From positions 23,343-87,342 of the forward strand of contig JAFTRQ010000037.1 in NCBI GenBank assembly GCA_017462125.1: a stretch of DNA of 64,000 bases, read 5' to 3'. Below are positions 11,363-52,747 of the stretch, piece after piece (the first letter of the stretch is position 1; each line of letters begins with the position of its first letter). The translations under genes were made by a program, and so were the position numbers. The DNA is from Clostridia bacterium. Lineage in GTDB: Bacteria; Bacillota_A; Clostridia; Oscillospirales; CAG-272. The notes under the pieces were generated by a model. The model was not told the DNA's origin. It was given only the letters and a program-made list of their open reading frames with translations, and searched no databases.

Positions 11363-11383
11363 ATCTATCCAAAGAGGTAATTT

Positions 11384-47681: not shown

Positions 47682-49082
47682 GTGAACATAAAGAAAAACG
47701 ATATAATCGAGCTTGAAATAACCGACCTGAACAATTTGGGTTGCGGCGTGGGAAAGACAGACGACGGTGTGGTGGTCTTCGTCAAGGGTGCGGTCACGGG
47801 TGACCGCGTGACGGCTAAGATTATCAAGGTGTCGTCAAGCTTTCTCGTGGGCAAGCTTGAAAAGATACTGATAAGCTCTCCGAACCGTGCGGACGGTGAG
47901 GGTCTTCGAAAGAGCGATTGCAGAGCTCCGCAGTCCTGTGGAGGCTGTATTTACAGAAATATTAAATACGAGCATGAGCTCATTCTCAAGCGCGACTACG
48001 TAAAGTCTGCCTTCCGCAAGGCGGGGCTGCCCGACGTAACGGTGCTTGACACAGCACATACCGAGCGAGTGACAGGCTACCGAAACAAGGGTCAGTACCC
48101 CGTCAGAGAGGTGCAGGGCAGAGTGAGAGCGGGATTTTTTGCGACCAAAACCCATAATCTCATTCCTTGCGAGGAATGTCTGCTTCAGCCCGACGTGTTC
48201 GGCGAGATCGTGGCGTATGTTACAGATTTTGCCGAGAAAAATAAGATCAAGGCATACGATGAGGAAAAGGGCAAGGGCGTTTTGCGCCATATCTATCTCC
48301 GAATCGCAGAGAAGACGGGGCAGATCATGGTTTGCCTTGTGATCAATGCGGATAAGATGCCCTATGCCGAGCGCTTCGCCGAGGAATTGGTTGCAAAGTT
48401 CCCCTCGGTGACATCGGTGATGCTGAATTTTAACAAGAAGAATACCAACGTGATCCTCGGTGACAGATTTGAGTGCATCGGGGGTGTGGACTATATCATT
48501 GACGAGCTTTGCGGTCTGCAGTTCAAAATTTCTGCGGGCTCGTTCTATCAGGTCAACCGTGACGGAGCGGAGTTGCTTTATGGTTTAGCCAAGGAGCGCG
48601 CGGCATTGACGGGCAAGGAGACCGTAGCCGACCTTTACTGCGGCGCGGGAACCATCGGGCTTTCTATGGCGAAGGAGGCTTCGCGCATCGTCGGAGTCGA
48701 GATCGTGGACGAGGCGGTGGAGTGCGCAAAAGAAAACGCGAAACTCAACGGTGTGGAGAACGCATACTTTTTCTGCGGCGACGCATCCGACACAAGAGGA
48801 CTTTTGGCCACGGCAAAGGATACCCTTGGTGATTTCTGCCCCGATGTGGTGATCATCGACCCGCCGAGAAAGGGAACGACCGAGGAATTGGTTAATTACC
48901 TCGATTCGCTTGGTGTTCCGAGGATAGTGTACGTCTCTTGTAATCCCGATACGCTGGCGAGAGACTGTAAATGGTTTGCCGAAAAGGGATATAGCATAGG
49001 TGAAGTGACTCCCGTTGATCTTTTCCCGGGAACAGGGCACGTCGAAAGTGTCGTGTGTCTCGAAAGGAGAATATTATTATGA
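47682..49082 (+). CDS. rlmD: 23S rRNA (uracil-C5)-methyltransferase, RlmD/RlmCD type
   Basis: 466 residues from a GTG at 47682 preceded by AAAGGA. N-terminal TRAM domain (about 1-60), a [4Fe-4S] motif with Cys80, Cys86 and Cys89 plus a later cysteine near 162, then the SAM domain: VADLYCGAGTIGLSMA, VIIDPPRKG, and the catalytic cysteine in YVSCNPDTLARD near residue 419. It makes m5U in 23S rRNA. The end reads DLFPGTGHVESVVCLERR. The stop overlaps the first accessory gene by four bases, and degenerate copies of this 3' end recur in the spacers of the array downstream. Confidence 0.94.
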   Translation: MNIKKNDIIELEITDLNNLGCGVGKTDDGVVVFVKGAVTGDRVTAKIIKVSSSFLVGKLEKILISSPNRADGEGLRKSDCRAPQSCGGCIYRNIKYEHELILKRDYVKSAFRKAGLPDVTVLDTAHTERVTGYRNKGQYPVREVQGRVRAGFFATKTHNLIPCEECLLQPDVFGEIVAYVTDFAEKNKIKAYDEEKGKGVLRHIYLRIAEKTGQIMVCLVINADKMPYAERFAEELVAKFPSVTSVMLNFNKKNTNVILGDRFECIGGVDYIIDELCGLQFKISAGSFYQVNRDGAELLYGLAKERAALTGKETVADLYCGAGTIGLSMAKEASRIVGVEIVDEAVECAKENAKLNGVENAYFFCGDASDTRGLLATAKDTLGDFCPDVVIIDPPRKGTTEELVNYLDSLGVPRIVYVSCNPDTLARDCKWFAEKGYSIGEVTPVDLFPGTGHVESVVCLERRILL

Positions 49083-50407
49083 CAGAAGATCAAAAGCAGC
49101 TTATAAGAGAGCGATTGTTTTTTAGCAGCGATTTTCAAACAAGTTGGAAAAAATATTTAAAAGCTTTTGGAGAAGATTTAGACGAACTTTTTGGTGAGGA
49201 CTATGACAAAAAAATGCGCCTCCCCGAGGGTCTTGAACATTTGTTAAACAACAGATTGTCCGATGCATACCACATAATACGTCATTTAGAATCCGCGTGT
49301 GTAACCGATGCCGATAAACAGATTTTTGATAGACTGATTGCGCTTTGTTTAAATGAGAAAGAAATGGCAAAAGCCAAAGTCGGAGATTGGGTAAAACAAA
49401 GCAACGGGGGATTTTATCAAATAATCAAACGTACGCCCGATTATGCTGTTATCAAAAGAGCTTTCGATCATAAGTTTGTTTATGTGAAGCAATCTGTAAA
49501 CGTTGACAGCTTTGCTATTGAATTAACCGACTTAAAAACCTATCAATTTCTTGAAAAAGAAGAGCTGCTGAAAATCAAAAGCTTTTTTGCAGATAATCCC
49601 GATGAAGAGACGGATTTTTTGCGTTATACCGATACAATGCTTTCCTTGAGAGAAGCAATCCTCAAGGCAAAATTCAATGAAGCAGGGTGGGAGTTTAGAC
49701 AGTTCAGCTTTTACCGTTGTACGCTTGAAAAGGTTGCTTTTATTGTCAATTTGAAAGACTATGGCGACCATATTGGCGTAACCTATGGTTTTACATCTAT
49801 CGTAGATCAAGACCATTTGAAGAATTACGGCGAAGATAACAACGATATTAAGTTGCGTTTTTGCTCGGTTATAAAAAACGAGCAAGACAAGATAGCTGTT
49901 GCAAACGAAGTAAAAAATGTATATGCTACATACTTAGATAAATCGAAAGACGAAATATTGTCACTAAAACAAGAACGTCAAAAGCAGTTTTTGCAAAAAA
50001 TAGCCGATAAAATGAAGCCGCTTGGCTTTAAGAAAAAAGGTGCAAAATGGACAAGAACTTTGGATCGTGAGTTTTGCTTGGATTTTGAAGCTCAAAAATC
50101 CCAGTGGTCTGATGAGTATTATTTCAACGTGAGTGTGTATCACAAAGATGTTCAATTTCCGCAGTGTTACGGAACGCGCCTCAATACCAACGGAAAAGGC
50201 ATTTACAATTGGCAGTTAATAACAGACGAAGAATTGAATTGTTTGTTAAATGAAGCAATCCAAAGTATTTTGACACCGATTATCAATACCCCGCTTTCTG
50301 AACTTGGCAACCAAAAAGAAATATGGCAGGGCTGTACTTGCCCAAGAAACAAATGTAATGCTTGTTGGGTGCAGAAAAACATATGGGAAGCGAACGAAGC
50401 AAAATGA
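49079..50407 (+). CDS. Accessory cassette gene 1, DUF4304-like C-terminus
   Basis: 442 residues from the ATG at 49079, whose GAAAGGAG lies within the rlmD 3' end. Clearly more AT-rich than its neighbours. Residues 1-300 are not recognised. The region from about 318 (MKPLGFKKKGAKWTR, then YFNVSVYHKDVQFP) resembles DUF4304, a domain common in immunity-like and accessory proteins. The C-terminus has a CTCPRNKCNACW cysteine cluster (CxCx4CxxC), a possible zinc site. No signal peptide. Likely horizontally acquired. Confidence 0.7.
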   Translation: MTEDQKQLIRERLFFSSDFQTSWKKYLKAFGEDLDELFGEDYDKKMRLPEGLEHLLNNRLSDAYHIIRHLESACVTDADKQIFDRLIALCLNEKEMAKAKVGDWVKQSNGGFYQIIKRTPDYAVIKRAFDHKFVYVKQSVNVDSFAIELTDLKTYQFLEKEELLKIKSFFADNPDEETDFLRYTDTMLSLREAILKAKFNEAGWEFRQFSFYRCTLEKVAFIVNLKDYGDHIGVTYGFTSIVDQDHLKNYGEDNNDIKLRFCSVIKNEQDKIAVANEVKNVYATYLDKSKDEILSLKQERQKQFLQKIADKMKPLGFKKKGAKWTRTLDREFCLDFEAQKSQWSDEYYFNVSVYHKDVQFPQCYGTRLNTNGKGIYNWQLITDEELNCLLNEAIQSILTPIINTPLSELGNQKEIWQGCTCPRNKCNACWVQKNIWEANEAK

Positions 50408-50469
50408 AGCGATATGTTTCAAACACTACTCTAAAATTAGAGCAAATGTGGGGTTCCGCCTATTATTTT

Positions 50470-50530
50470 GAGACCTATTGCGCTCTTGCCCCATGTCGAA
50501 AGTTTAGTTTGTCTGTCCCGAGAGCAATAG
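50470..50530 (+). repeat. rlmD 3'-end-like spacer repeat, copy A
   Basis: Read in frame from 50480 it gives ALLPHVESLVCLSREQ and a TAG at 50528-50530, matching the rlmD ending (HVESVVCL). It has no start codon of its own. It lies between cassette genes 1 and 2 and shares a GAGACCTwTTGCrCT start with copy B. Confidence 0.8.
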
Positions 50531-50540
50531 AGGTATATTT

Positions 50541-50879
50541 ATGAATGATATAGAACTCATCTATGAAAAAGTGAAAGGCAGTCACAATTTGCGTTTAGCG
50601 AACACCGCTGCCTTAAATGAAGGATTTGTTTGGAATGTCCCCGTTATTTACGGTGAATCTCAACAAGGAAGATTTTGGTTGTATGCAGACGAAGATGTTC
50701 CCAATCCGCACGGAATCGGGTTTGTTTTTTCTGTGGAATATTCAGAATATGAGGAACAAACAGAAGAGGGATTGGAAAGAGTGGCGAAGTGTCATACACA
50801 TTGGCATCTGCAGACCATAGAACAAGCTGTTGAAGATGTAAGCAAATTTATGGCAGGGAAGCGTATTTTCAAAAAGTGA
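50541..50879 (+). CDS. Accessory cassette gene 2, unknown
   Basis: 112 residues, acidic, soluble, no signal peptide or known domain. It contains RFWLYADEDVPNPHGIGFVF and a C-terminal HTHWHLQTIEQAVEDVSKFM helix. Size, acidity and context suggest an immunity-type protein, but that is inference. AGAGGTATATTT precedes the ATG. AT-rich. Confidence 0.65.
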   Translation: MNDIELIYEKVKGSHNLRLANTAALNEGFVWNVPVIYGESQQGRFWLYADEDVPNPHGIGFVFSVEYSEYEEQTEEGLERVAKCHTHWHLQTIEQAVEDVSKFMAGKRIFKK

Positions 50880-50946
50880 GACCTTTTGCACTATTGACCC
50901 ATATCGAGTCCGTCGTTTGTCTGACGAGAAATTAACATATCGAAAG
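50878..50946 (+). repeat. rlmD 3'-end-like spacer repeat, copy B
   Basis: In frame from 50888: ALLTHIESVVCLTRN then TAA at 50933-50935. The following AACATATCGAAAGGAG supplies the ribosome binding site of cassette gene 3 and resembles both the rlmD tail (TCGAAAGGAGA) and the start of the next spacer's AACATATCAAAAGG. Confidence 0.82.
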
Positions 50947-50954
50947 GAGATTGT

Positions 50955-51407
50955 ATGAAAAACAAGAAGATAGACCAAAAAGTATTTTCTTTTTATAGCA
51001 TTTCATCTCCTTGCGATTTTACTGCAAGAATTAAGGAAGAAGCGATTGGTTCAAACCTGAATATTGAACAAAACGATACAGGCTTTAATTTACAACTTGA
51101 TAGTAATCATGGAGGAAGGATTGTTTACAAAGCAACCGTGATAGAAGAAAATGGCGGCTCTTACATAAGCGGAGAAATCGCAACGATTCCTTGGAGCGAC
51201 AAGCCCAACAAAAAGAAAAGTATAATCGAAAAAATCTTTTCGGTTATTGGTTATATTGTCGTCTTTCCTTTCATGCTGATTTTCTTATTATTTTATGGTA
51301 TATATACGTTGTTTGTTAGGCTCTTTCGCGGTAAAAGCATCGAAACTACAAAAGAAGATAAGCTTTGCGATTTTATGATAAATAAAATGTGTTGCAAGCA
51401 AAAATGA
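50955..51407 (+). CDS. Accessory cassette gene 3, small membrane protein
   Basis: 150 residues. An N-terminal soluble region (1-85), then a long hydrophobic segment (about 90-118, one or two passes), then a charged tail ending in CCKQK. No recognised domain. Could be a membrane-located immunity protein. AAAGGAGA precedes the ATG. AT-rich. Confidence 0.65.
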   Translation: MKNKKIDQKVFSFYSISSPCDFTARIKEEAIGSNLNIEQNDTGFNLQLDSNHGGRIVYKATVIEENGGSYISGEIATIPWSDKPNKKKSIIEKIFSVIGYIVVFPFMLIFLLFYGIYTLFVRLFRGKSIETTKEDKLCDFMINKMCCKQK

Positions 51408-51465
51408 GTTTTGAGCAAAACTTTTCTTATAGCAGTACGGTATAACATATCAAAAGGGGTATCAT
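51408..51465 (+). repeat. Degenerate spacer between cassette genes 3 and 4
   Basis: The HVESVVCL-coding part is not recognisable, but TAACATATC(A)AAAGG at 51443-51457 matches the tail of copy B. It may be a decayed member of the same repeat family. Confidence 0.4.
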
Positions 51466-51906
51466 ATGATAGACAGAAGCAAAGAAGAATATTGGACAGG
51501 CAATAGCGCTGGTGACATTCATGAATATCTTTGCGAATATAGCGAACAAGAAGATATTGAAGTTAAAGCTGTTGAATGTCAGATTTGTAAAGGTGATGTT
51601 TTTACACTAAAGGTTGACCAAGACGAGGGAGCTATTGAAGTAACATGCGTAAAATGTAAAGCAAAAAAGCTATTGCTTGATAGCTCGGAAATATGGGAGG
51701 AATGCAACCCCAAAACAGGTAGTTGTCCTATTTGCAAGGGTAAAAGCTATAATATTGGCGTAGGCTTTTTGCGACGTTCAACGGGAGATGTAAAACACGT
51801 GTTTATCGGCAATCGTTGTATAGGATGTGGGGCGCTAGGTTCGTATGTTGATTGGGATATAAATTATGGACCTACCGATGAAATGGAAAAAATATATAGT
51901 GAATAA
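51466..51906 (+). CDS. Accessory cassette gene 4, double zinc-ribbon protein
   Basis: 146 residues with four CxxC pairs (Cys38/41, 61/64, 87/90, 118/121), the pattern of two zinc ribbons. The start IDRSKEEYWTGNSAGDIHEYL is acidic and unlike nucleic-acid-binding ribbons. Function unknown. Its ribosome binding site AAAAGGGG comes from the preceding spacer. AT-rich. Confidence 0.65.
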   Translation: MIDRSKEEYWTGNSAGDIHEYLCEYSEQEDIEVKAVECQICKGDVFTLKVDQDEGAIEVTCVKCKAKKLLLDSSEIWEECNPKTGSCPICKGKSYNIGVGFLRRSTGDVKHVFIGNRCIGCGALGSYVDWDINYGPTDEMEKIYSE

Positions 51907-51908
51907 TA

Positions 51909-51964
51909 TACCTTTTGTACTCTTGACCTATGTTGAAAGTGTGGTCTGTCTCCCAAAAAGATAA
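51909..51964 (+). repeat. rlmD 3'-end-like spacer repeat, copy D
   Basis: In frame from 51917: VLLTYVESVVCLPKR then TAA at 51962-51964. It marks the right end of the array; base composition returns to the genome norm directly after it. Confidence 0.8.
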
Positions 51965-51985
51965 ATTTCAAGAGAGGATAACCCT

Positions 51986-52747
51986 ATGATACATTCATTT
52001 TTGATAATCGGACAGTCGAATATGGCGGGGCGCGGGTCTCTTACCGCGGCCAAACCCCTTGACACGTGCGGCGGCAAGTTGAAGGTCTTGCGCAACGGCA
52101 GGTGGCAGACTATGTACCGCCCCGTCAATCCCGACAGACCCTTTTCGGGAACCTGTTTGGCAGAGAGCTTTGCAAAGGCGTATTCGGACGAGCACACGGG
52201 CATTGAGGTGGGTATTATCCCCTGCGCCGACGGCGGAACGACCCTTGACCAATGGCAGGAGGGCGGCTTGCTTTTTGATAACGCGGTATATTGCGCCAGA
52301 CTTGCTATGAGGACATCACATCTTGTGGGAATACTTTGGCATCAGGGCGAGGGTGACTGCCATGAGACGAAATATCCCGTGTATCTTGAAAAGATAACGG
52401 CTATGATGGCGGCTTTGCGCAGAGAGTTGAATGCCGAGGACGTTCCGATCGTGGTCGGTGGCTTGGGAGATTTCCTCAAGGATATGACTACCGCTCCTGC
52501 GCTTGCAAATTATCCTCACGTAAATTCGGCGCTCCGTGAGTTTGCCGCAAGCGCGCCGAGAGTTGCCTTTGCGTCCGCCGAGGGACTTACGTCAAATCCC
52601 GACAATCTGCATTTTAATCACGAGTCCCTGCAGGCGTTCGGTTTACGTTATTACGAAGCATTCAAGACGGTGGAGGATAAGGAGCGCGTCTTTGACGAAA
52701 AGAGCAAAATGGATGATGCTGTGCGTACGGCAATGGAGCTTTTATAA
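51986..52747 (+). CDS. Sialate O-acetylesterase family (SASA) protein
   Basis: 253 residues. SGNH-type esterase of the SASA/CE6 group: IGQSNMAGRG holds the nucleophilic serine, ILWHQGEGDC the oxyanion-hole block, and DNLHFN the catalytic Asp-His. The family removes acetyl esters from sialic acids or xylan. No signal peptide. GAGAGGA precedes the ATG. It is followed after 23 bases by a sugar isomerase-like gene. Confidence 0.88.
   Translation: MIHSFLIIGQSNMAGRGSLTAAKPLDTCGGKLKVLRNGRWQTMYRPVNPDRPFSGTCLAESFAKAYSDEHTGIEVGIIPCADGGTTLDQWQEGGLLFDNAVYCARLAMRTSHLVGILWHQGEGDCHETKYPVYLEKITAMMAALRRELNAEDVPIVVGGLGDFLKDMTTAPALANYPHVNSALREFAASAPRVAFASAEGLTSNPDNLHFNHESLQAFGLRYYEAFKTVEDKERVFDEKSKMDDAVRTAMELL

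Follow-up and report, generated by a model that had tools for sequence, protein, structure and literature searches.

The rlmD locus and its downstream genes

We analyzed a 64,000-nucleotide stretch of contig JAFTRQ010000037.1 (positions 23,343 to 87,342; hereafter, the window) from a Clostridia bacterium of the Oscillospirales. In this window, rlmD (rumA), which encodes a 23S rRNA m5U methyltransferase, is followed by four genes, designated A to D, and by three short spacers resembling the 3′ end of rlmD. Integrons are the main setting in which gene-cassette arrays have been described. We propose that the genes behind rlmD form an array of small integrase-less, integron-like cassettes, which would have been inserted serially and site-specifically at the rlmD 3′ end; on the sequence comparisons given below, we put the probability of this reading at roughly three in four. 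L numbers denote loci and G numbers genomes, G001 being the genome that holds the window, and open reading frames (ORFs) were called with a simple ORF caller. The features are as follows.

47682..49082, + strand: rlmD (rumA), 23S rRNA m5U methyltransferase, 466 amino acids (aa), GTG start (ORF; Pfam PF05958 and TRAM)
49038..49066, + strand: rlmD copy of the core (HVESVVCL...), model positions 41-64 at 49038-49061
49079..50407, + strand: cassette gene A, 442 aa, DUF4304 at residues 309-358 (ORF, Pfam)
50460..50520, + strand: site 1, arm plus rlmD tail, His codon at 50492 (profile match)
50541..50879, + strand: cassette gene B, 112 aa, without Pfam match (homolog in L101)
50864..50929, + strand: site 2, arm plus rlmD tail, His codon at 50900 (profile match)
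50955..51407, + strand: cassette gene C, 150 aa, without Pfam match (Pfam scan)
51408..51459, + strand: remnant of the conserved cassette leader, without a site before it (leader search)
51466..51906, + strand: cassette gene D, 146 aa, CxxC pairs, no Pfam match at or above the cut-off (Pfam scan)
51891..51956, + strand: site 3, arm plus rlmD tail, His codon at 51929, last of the array (profile match)
51986..52747, + strand: carbohydrate esterase (SASA), first gene past the array, right flank (Pfam)

The GC contents of genes A, B, C, and D were 0.37, 0.40, 0.33, and 0.38, respectively, compared with 0.52 for rlmD and 0.53 for the downstream esterase gene, indicating that four AT-rich genes follow rlmD on its strand, as an original prediction made from the letters of the window had stated. 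That prediction described them as a cassette-like array; the four genes are present, but only three sites and three site-bounded units were found, with no site at the C/D junction. The spacers encode PHVESLVCL (from 50492), THIESVVCL (50900), and TYVESVVCL (51929) in one forward frame, each running into a stop codon, and rlmD, whose terminal sequence is HVESVVCLERRILL, encodes HVESVVCLERR from 49038, so the predicted peptides are real.

The ATG of gene A at 49079 overlaps the rlmD stop codon (ATGA), and a ribosome-site-like sequence, GAAAGGAG, lies within the rlmD tail 5′ of gene A. This overlap favors coupling of the two genes, and gene A is probably expressed by read-through from rlmD. A promoter and terminator scan of 48800-52100 gave 12 promoter-like matches, compared to 8.9 in shuffled sequences, and two terminator-like matches, compared to 2.9. 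The stop codon of gene B comes from the arm of site 2, and a short leader remnant, AACATATCGAAAGGAG, precedes gene C.

The spacers are hybrid sites of a foreign arm and the rlmD tail

A profile was built from 47 sites of other genomes, after seven of 54 aligned sites had been dropped (L111, L110, one each of L051 and L067, and the three window sites). Searched against the 64 kb, this window-free profile matched the three spacers at E-values of 3.3e-14, 1.6e-13, and 3.2e-11 and the rlmD end at 1.8e-5, and the next match was at 0.69. In 1000 dinucleotide shuffles of 49081-51985, the top score was 10.0 bits, as against 38.6-48.2 bits for the real matches. At the peptide level, the three real matches scored 39, 37, and 34, and in 2000 peptide shuffles the best matches averaged 17.2 (sd 3.1), the highest reaching 36. 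A lack of excess similarity to RlmD C-termini over shuffled sequence, which the original prediction had named as a refuting outcome, was thus not observed.

Each site is a composite. The right half is the core, the last ~27 bp (~9 codons) of rlmD, and the left half is a foreign arm common to the copies, conserved in each window spacer as GACCTTTTG...TTGACC and not derived from rlmD. When twelve copies from five loci were aligned, conservation began well to the left of the rlmD-like part, with GAGACCTTTTGGAGTCTTGACC, or TATACCTTTTG..., followed by CACGTCGAGAGTGTCGTTTGTCTGACG. The full arm (type A) is ~70 bp long and consists of two similar half-units ~35 bp apart; it was seen in many of the 54 sites listed (one of 55, L118 4201, failed the anchor and lay outside the alignment), and the window copies retain only the half-unit adjoining the core. 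The arm was absent from the rlmD ends in the alignment listing. By their composition, the spacers are hybrid sites resembling attachment (att) sites and not merely degenerate rlmD tails. The predicted view of them as relics of rlmD 3′ ends therefore holds for the right half and fails for the left. The spacers are also, as predicted, more alike than any is to the resident rlmD, because the left half is element-borne.

The typical cassette runs from the core through an often-present leader of ~110 bp, ending in AAAGGAG, to mostly one gene on the rlmD strand, then to the arm and the next core. The leader, ...TTTACAGCAGTTTAGTATAACATATCGAAAGGAG, stands immediately 5′ of the start codon in many cassette genes. 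A loose search found its end at 38 places in 57 loci, 15 of which had the longer upstream part as well. Within the family sample described below, 15 of 146 genomes held the leader, with 23 matches: 20 had coordinates inside already known array contigs, and of the three previously unknown ones, which were inspected, two lay directly 3′ of rlmD and the third followed a degenerate core, with an rlmD end about 7 kb earlier on the contig. Since many cassettes carry a conserved leader, the label 'promoterless', which the original prediction gave them, is in question.

Eight sites were also folded as single-stranded DNA, giving z-scores of −3.63, −2.36, −2.15, −1.67, +0.04, +0.31, +0.32, and +0.38. 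Both window sites that were folded had values near 0, and attC-like folding was inconsistent over the eight sites (no attC model search was made).

Left sides of three types meet the same core, all abutting it at or within 3 bp of GTCGA. Besides type A, a second type of cassette end (type B; GTAGACTCCCTACCTAAAGGGATAACC, also GTAGACTCCCTACCTAAAGGGA...) occurs in L005, L101, L165 (G057), L173 (G037), and L163 (G046). The type C left side is the 3′ end of a large serine recombinase gene in G032 (L059). By eye, the core at rlmD ends and sites is often directly followed by its own inverted copy (GTCGAGTC...GACTCGAC; e.g., L001 11357, L110 5650, and L118 5320), which tracks the local codon variant. 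Repeats resembling miniature inverted-repeat transposable elements (MITEs; GTAGGGGCGA..., GTAGGGCRGGGGC...) lie between the core and the leader or gene at L004 11859-12092, L002 13337-13510, and L005 12396-12637.

The arrays recur behind rlmD

Seventeen loci were fetched by RlmD similarity, and sites were found in L001 (one), L002 (four), L004 (three), and L014 (one); the window RlmD is 87% identical to that of L001. A pattern scan in a sample of one family gave 28 matches in 17 of 146 genomes, and the reversed pattern gave none. A model scan at the order level, whose strict filters make its counts lower bounds, matched at least 24 of 394 genomes at E≤1e-3; some of these were rlmD ends only, and 17 matched over both halves, as read from the individual matches. 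At the class level, four of 391 genomes matched at E≤1e-5, including G001.

The loci that hold rlmD contained 38 of the 51 strong sites, and 36 of these 38 lay downstream of rlmD on its strand. L103 accounts for the two exceptions, which sit close to the end of a contig, on the upstream side of an rlmD homolog. The insertion target would be the 3′ end of rlmD. The longest arrays, in G008 and G043, had five sites after rlmD. Over 23 arrays with 43 intervals, site spacing ranged from 296 to 3096 bp (median 782, interquartile range 521-1128 bp). ORFs of at least 85 aa in these intervals were on the rlmD strand in 50 of 52 cases, with two opposite, compared to 65 of 114 (65 to 49) in the upstream control. 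Array GC was 0.384 against 0.523 upstream and was lower in 23 of 23 arrays.

An arm-only scan of the 146 genomes gave 23 matches in 13 genomes, 22 of which coincided with sites that the core had already revealed. The remaining match is a type A arm beside a strongly diverged core (L271, G075:C5), followed by genes of 187 and 193 aa that look, by eye only, like a restriction pair. No copy of the arm or site was found in the plasmids, phages, or viral contigs searched. Two RlmD paralogs were observed in L100, L101, and L115; in L100 and L115 a few kb separate the two on a single contig, and the intervening genes include one that looks PHP-like by eye, and in L101 the second paralog carries the cassettes.

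Cassettes are shared between distant rlmD backgrounds

Nine pairs of cassettes were compared at the DNA level with gaps excluded, and each identity was set against that of the last kb of the accompanying rlmD genes. Five pairs showed higher identity in the cassette than in rlmD: the second cassette of L002 and the first of L066 (0.95, rlmD 0.73); the third of L004 and the first of L109 (0.90, rlmD 0.70); the second of L118 and the fifth of L054 (0.96, rlmD 0.72); L014 and L056 (0.95, rlmD 0.72, the latter taken from L055 of the same genome); and the first of L002 and the second of L173 (0.80, rlmD 0.72). In many of the pairs listed, such as L002/L066, L004/L109, and L051/L111, which are examples and not a count, the alignment begins at the identical core base in both partners; for L002 11878 and L066 3704, this is core offset 0 in both. 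The alignments of other pairs, L014/L056 among them, lack this common starting base.

L002 and L005 are close relatives. Their left flanks share 91.1% identity across 11.4 kb, up to position 11381 of each, which falls within the rlmD tail, and their right flanks are 94.3% identical over 6.4 kb, from 15028 and 14005, respectively. Between these flanks, the content is unrelated except for a 145-bp stretch. Recurrence behind rlmD and homology that often starts exactly at the core agree with the prediction that incoming units insert at the rlmD 3′ end with a tail of their own and displace the old one. A fixed gene order across relatives, the other refuting outcome named by the prediction, was not seen; both order and content vary.

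Cassette gene content

Cassette proteins were defined as ORFs of at least 85 aa, with the recombinase fragment of L059 left out, giving 59 proteins. Pfam assigned six of them to the four-helix 23S_rRNA_IVP family and two to GIY-YIG, and DUF4304, glycerate kinase, glycoside hydrolase family 38 (GH38), helicase, ferredoxin-type, and others were single cases. The six recurring four-helix-bundle genes are in L051, L118, L054, L067, L102, and L105, and several of these arrays contain runs of short hairpins behind rlmD; the 23S_rRNA_IVP genes may be a separate element type that uses the same place. PADLOC gave three single weak matches (E 3e-4 to 6e-4), and Rfam gave two matches on L054 2200-7300, both far below gathering scores.

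Gene A has a homolog in L051 (73% DNA identity over 1293 bp), and gene B has one in L101, directly 3′ of the second rlmD paralog. With the L101 relative of gene B as the query, 51 proteins were retrieved, none with a Pfam domain.

Recombinases and known rumA elements

The original prediction held that the array has no local recombinase. Consistent with this, none was present in the six window genes scanned by Pfam (no IntI model search was made), and the 59 cassette proteins showed none within the listed families (25 of 29 in Pfam and 25 of 30 in NCBIfam, the unlisted ones being single weak matches). A search for a recombinase linked to such arrays elsewhere had also been suggested as a check; none could be tied to the type A or B arms. 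The sole recombinase seen in an array is the serine recombinase fragment of G032 (L059), which lies ahead of a gene and a site. Recombinases related to it occurred in 33 of 394 genomes at E≤1e-30, and by reading, rumA-type serine recombinases ended in an RlmD-like tail (e.g., HVETVV) in 21 of 30 loci. When set against serine-recombinase 3′ ends, type A arms had a mean best match of 10.7 of 24 (maximum 14), compared to 9.2 for shuffled type B arms. Tyrosine recombinases gave 22 matches in nine array genomes, all away from the arrays, and no recombinase lay beside the sole new arm-only place, in G075, in the 146-genome scan for a parent element.

Elements that target rumA are described in parts of two reports. 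The streptococcal integrative and conjugative elements (ICEs) and integrative and mobilizable elements (IMEs) use a single serine integrase, have a repeat in rumA and in the integrase gene, and exchange the 3′ ends (PMC4701971); the repeat in rumA-targeting elements is 2-21 bp long (PMC4701971, PMC4320837), and CTn5 of Clostridioides difficile moved into rumA (PMC4320837). The streptococcal precedent invoked by the original prediction is thus real, but as PMC4701971 describes it, it concerns ICEs and IMEs with their own serine integrase. The rlmD arrays share the target gene with these elements and, as far as sequence evidence goes, the exchange of tails, and the type C site of L059 is of this kind. 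They differ in that ICEs and IMEs encode an integrase with the att site in its gene, and ICEs also transfer genes, whereas the rlmD units mostly hold one gene, have other arms, and include an integrase only as the L059 fragment. Because the three left sides abut the core at or near GTCGA, because rumA precedents exist in streptococci and CTn5, and because recombinases have RlmD-like tails, our leading candidate is a rumA-specific large serine recombinase, which might be supplied in trans by a passing element; we offer this tentatively, at somewhat less than even odds.

Proposed mechanism and alternatives

In the mechanism we propose, a circular cassette carrying arm and core would recombine with the rlmD 3′ end. 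Then, rlmD would receive the tail of the cassette, and the old tail would shift downstream fused to the arm, bounding the cassette on its right. Since the new tail would still encode HVESVVCL, the target would be restored, and so insertion next to rlmD could be repeated.

Several results weigh against serial, site-specific cassette insertion. No recombinase was tied to type A or type B arms or cassettes, and a count over the 26 array genomes alone showed PF07508 serine recombinases in just 16 and not in the other ten. The possibility that type B arms are serine-recombinase 3′ ends was dropped after a fixed-register test (P 0.09-0.40 per site). Likewise rejected was a 280-aa tyrosine recombinase present in five of the nine array genomes, which across the sampled family of genomes occurs in 5 of 17 array genomes versus 43 of 129 others (P=1). 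Four of the nine cassette pairs were weaker or contrary cases: genes A and B of the window have only diverged relatives (A and L051, 0.75, rlmD 0.71; B and L101, 0.77, rlmD 0.66), and L002/L054 (0.71, rlmD 0.71) and L002/L004 (0.81, rlmD 0.95) showed no excess over rlmD. The GH38 gene of L059 has relatives in the downstream flanks of L002, L005, and L069, so that host genes trapped between two sites may account for some units. In the window, a boundary lacks a site, only a leader remnant lying between genes C and D; the remnants before gene D and, in short form, before gene C suggest that a site was lost, though it may never have been present. Finally, the genomes are largely fragmented metagenome-assembled genomes, and the taxonomic reach is therefore approximate.

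Decayed remnants of large rumA-integrating ICEs or IMEs, that is, cis-mobilizable elements (CIMEs), form an alternative that overlaps with our reading and that we consider unlikely. Each remnant would have left a gene and an att site, the cassettes would be immobile, and differences among arrays would stem from full-size insertions and deletions. The relatives of the G032 recombinase, most with RlmD-like tails, would fit such a source, and accretion of CIMEs is documented (PMC5704250, PMC3146451, as far as the excerpts of both go). Against it stand the smallness of the units and their nearly uniform orientation, a common leader and arm that were not met on any integrase-bearing element in the data searched, and single units common to distant genomes.

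Rather less probable is homologous exchange, in which DNA uptake and ordinary recombination in the arms, cores, and leaders would act without a dedicated site-specific recombinase. Arms (~70 bp), cores (~27 bp), and leaders (~110 bp) do provide stretches of homology, and no recombinase was found; yet such exchange does not account for how a foreign arm first became fused to an rlmD tail, nor for the junction at or within 3 bp of GTCGA common to arms A and B and the recombinase 3′ end. We regard a target-specific transposon or MITE next to rlmD as very improbable: the constant right end, the constant target, and the MITE-like hairpins inside several cassettes would suit it, but no matching inverted repeat was seen by eye at the other end, a coding core of ~27 bp is carried and exchanged, the arm-only matches fall at core sites or (G075) beside a diverged core, and plasmids, phages, and viral contigs gave no copy. 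Chance similarity or a tandem partial duplication of rlmD, which the shortness of the rlmD repeat (only ~27 bp) could favor, is refuted by the shuffles, the independent profile, and a foreign arm common to sites in many genomes.

Comparison with known arrays

CIME accretion, ssrA islands, and integrons are, by analogy, the close precedents of the rlmD cassette arrays. Like integrons and clusters of attC sites lacking integron integrases (CALINs), the rlmD arrays, in 23 cases, consist of small one-strand units with a site 3′ of the gene, in tandem from a fixed site, with cassettes common to several genomes, and as in CALINs, there is no integrase nearby. They depart from these in having a protein-coding 3′ end as the fixed site, in sites that join an arm to an rlmD tail and show no consistent fold, in the 5′ leader of many cassettes, and in their clostridial hosts; integrons occur only very occasionally in Firmicutes, according to a passage of PMC9024848. 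With CIMEs, the units share att-like sites on both sides and the lack of integration or transfer genes among the families listed.

The Dehalococcoides ssrA islands, as presented in part of PMC3146451, where CcrB is also discussed, include 16 with an integration module containing a serine recombinase and 15 without; they stand in tandem, with a boundary repeat of the target 3′ end and a conserved motif just upstream. The rlmD arrays resemble them in the tandem order after a target 3′ end, the boundary repeats, the upstream motif, and the members without an integration module, and differ in the protein-coding target and in units of 0.3-3.1 kb. They also resemble the staphylococcal cassette chromosome (SCC) in that the target is the 3′ end of an rRNA methyltransferase gene. 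In staphylococci, this gene is rlmH (orfX), into which SCC elements insert serially; they are large and carry ccr recombinases. Here the target is rlmD, not rlmH, and no recombinase was found among the window array genes. We found no account of small cassette arrays at rlmD in the open-access full-text literature searched.

Implications

The arrays may represent a gene-capture system of Clostridia unrelated to integrons, in which the rlmD 3′ end would be a permanent, self-restored dock, and in which a standard leader and arm, together with a non-IntI recombinase acting in trans, would shuffle a community-wide pool of small genes; we hold this wider view to be nearly an even call, slightly on the doubtful side. 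The arrays point to new small accessory genes, many without a Pfam family, and raise the testable question of which recombinase serves integrase-less cassettes. If the arrays are active, gut Clostridia would have a cassette traffic of their own, whose dock is a housekeeping gene repaired at every insertion.

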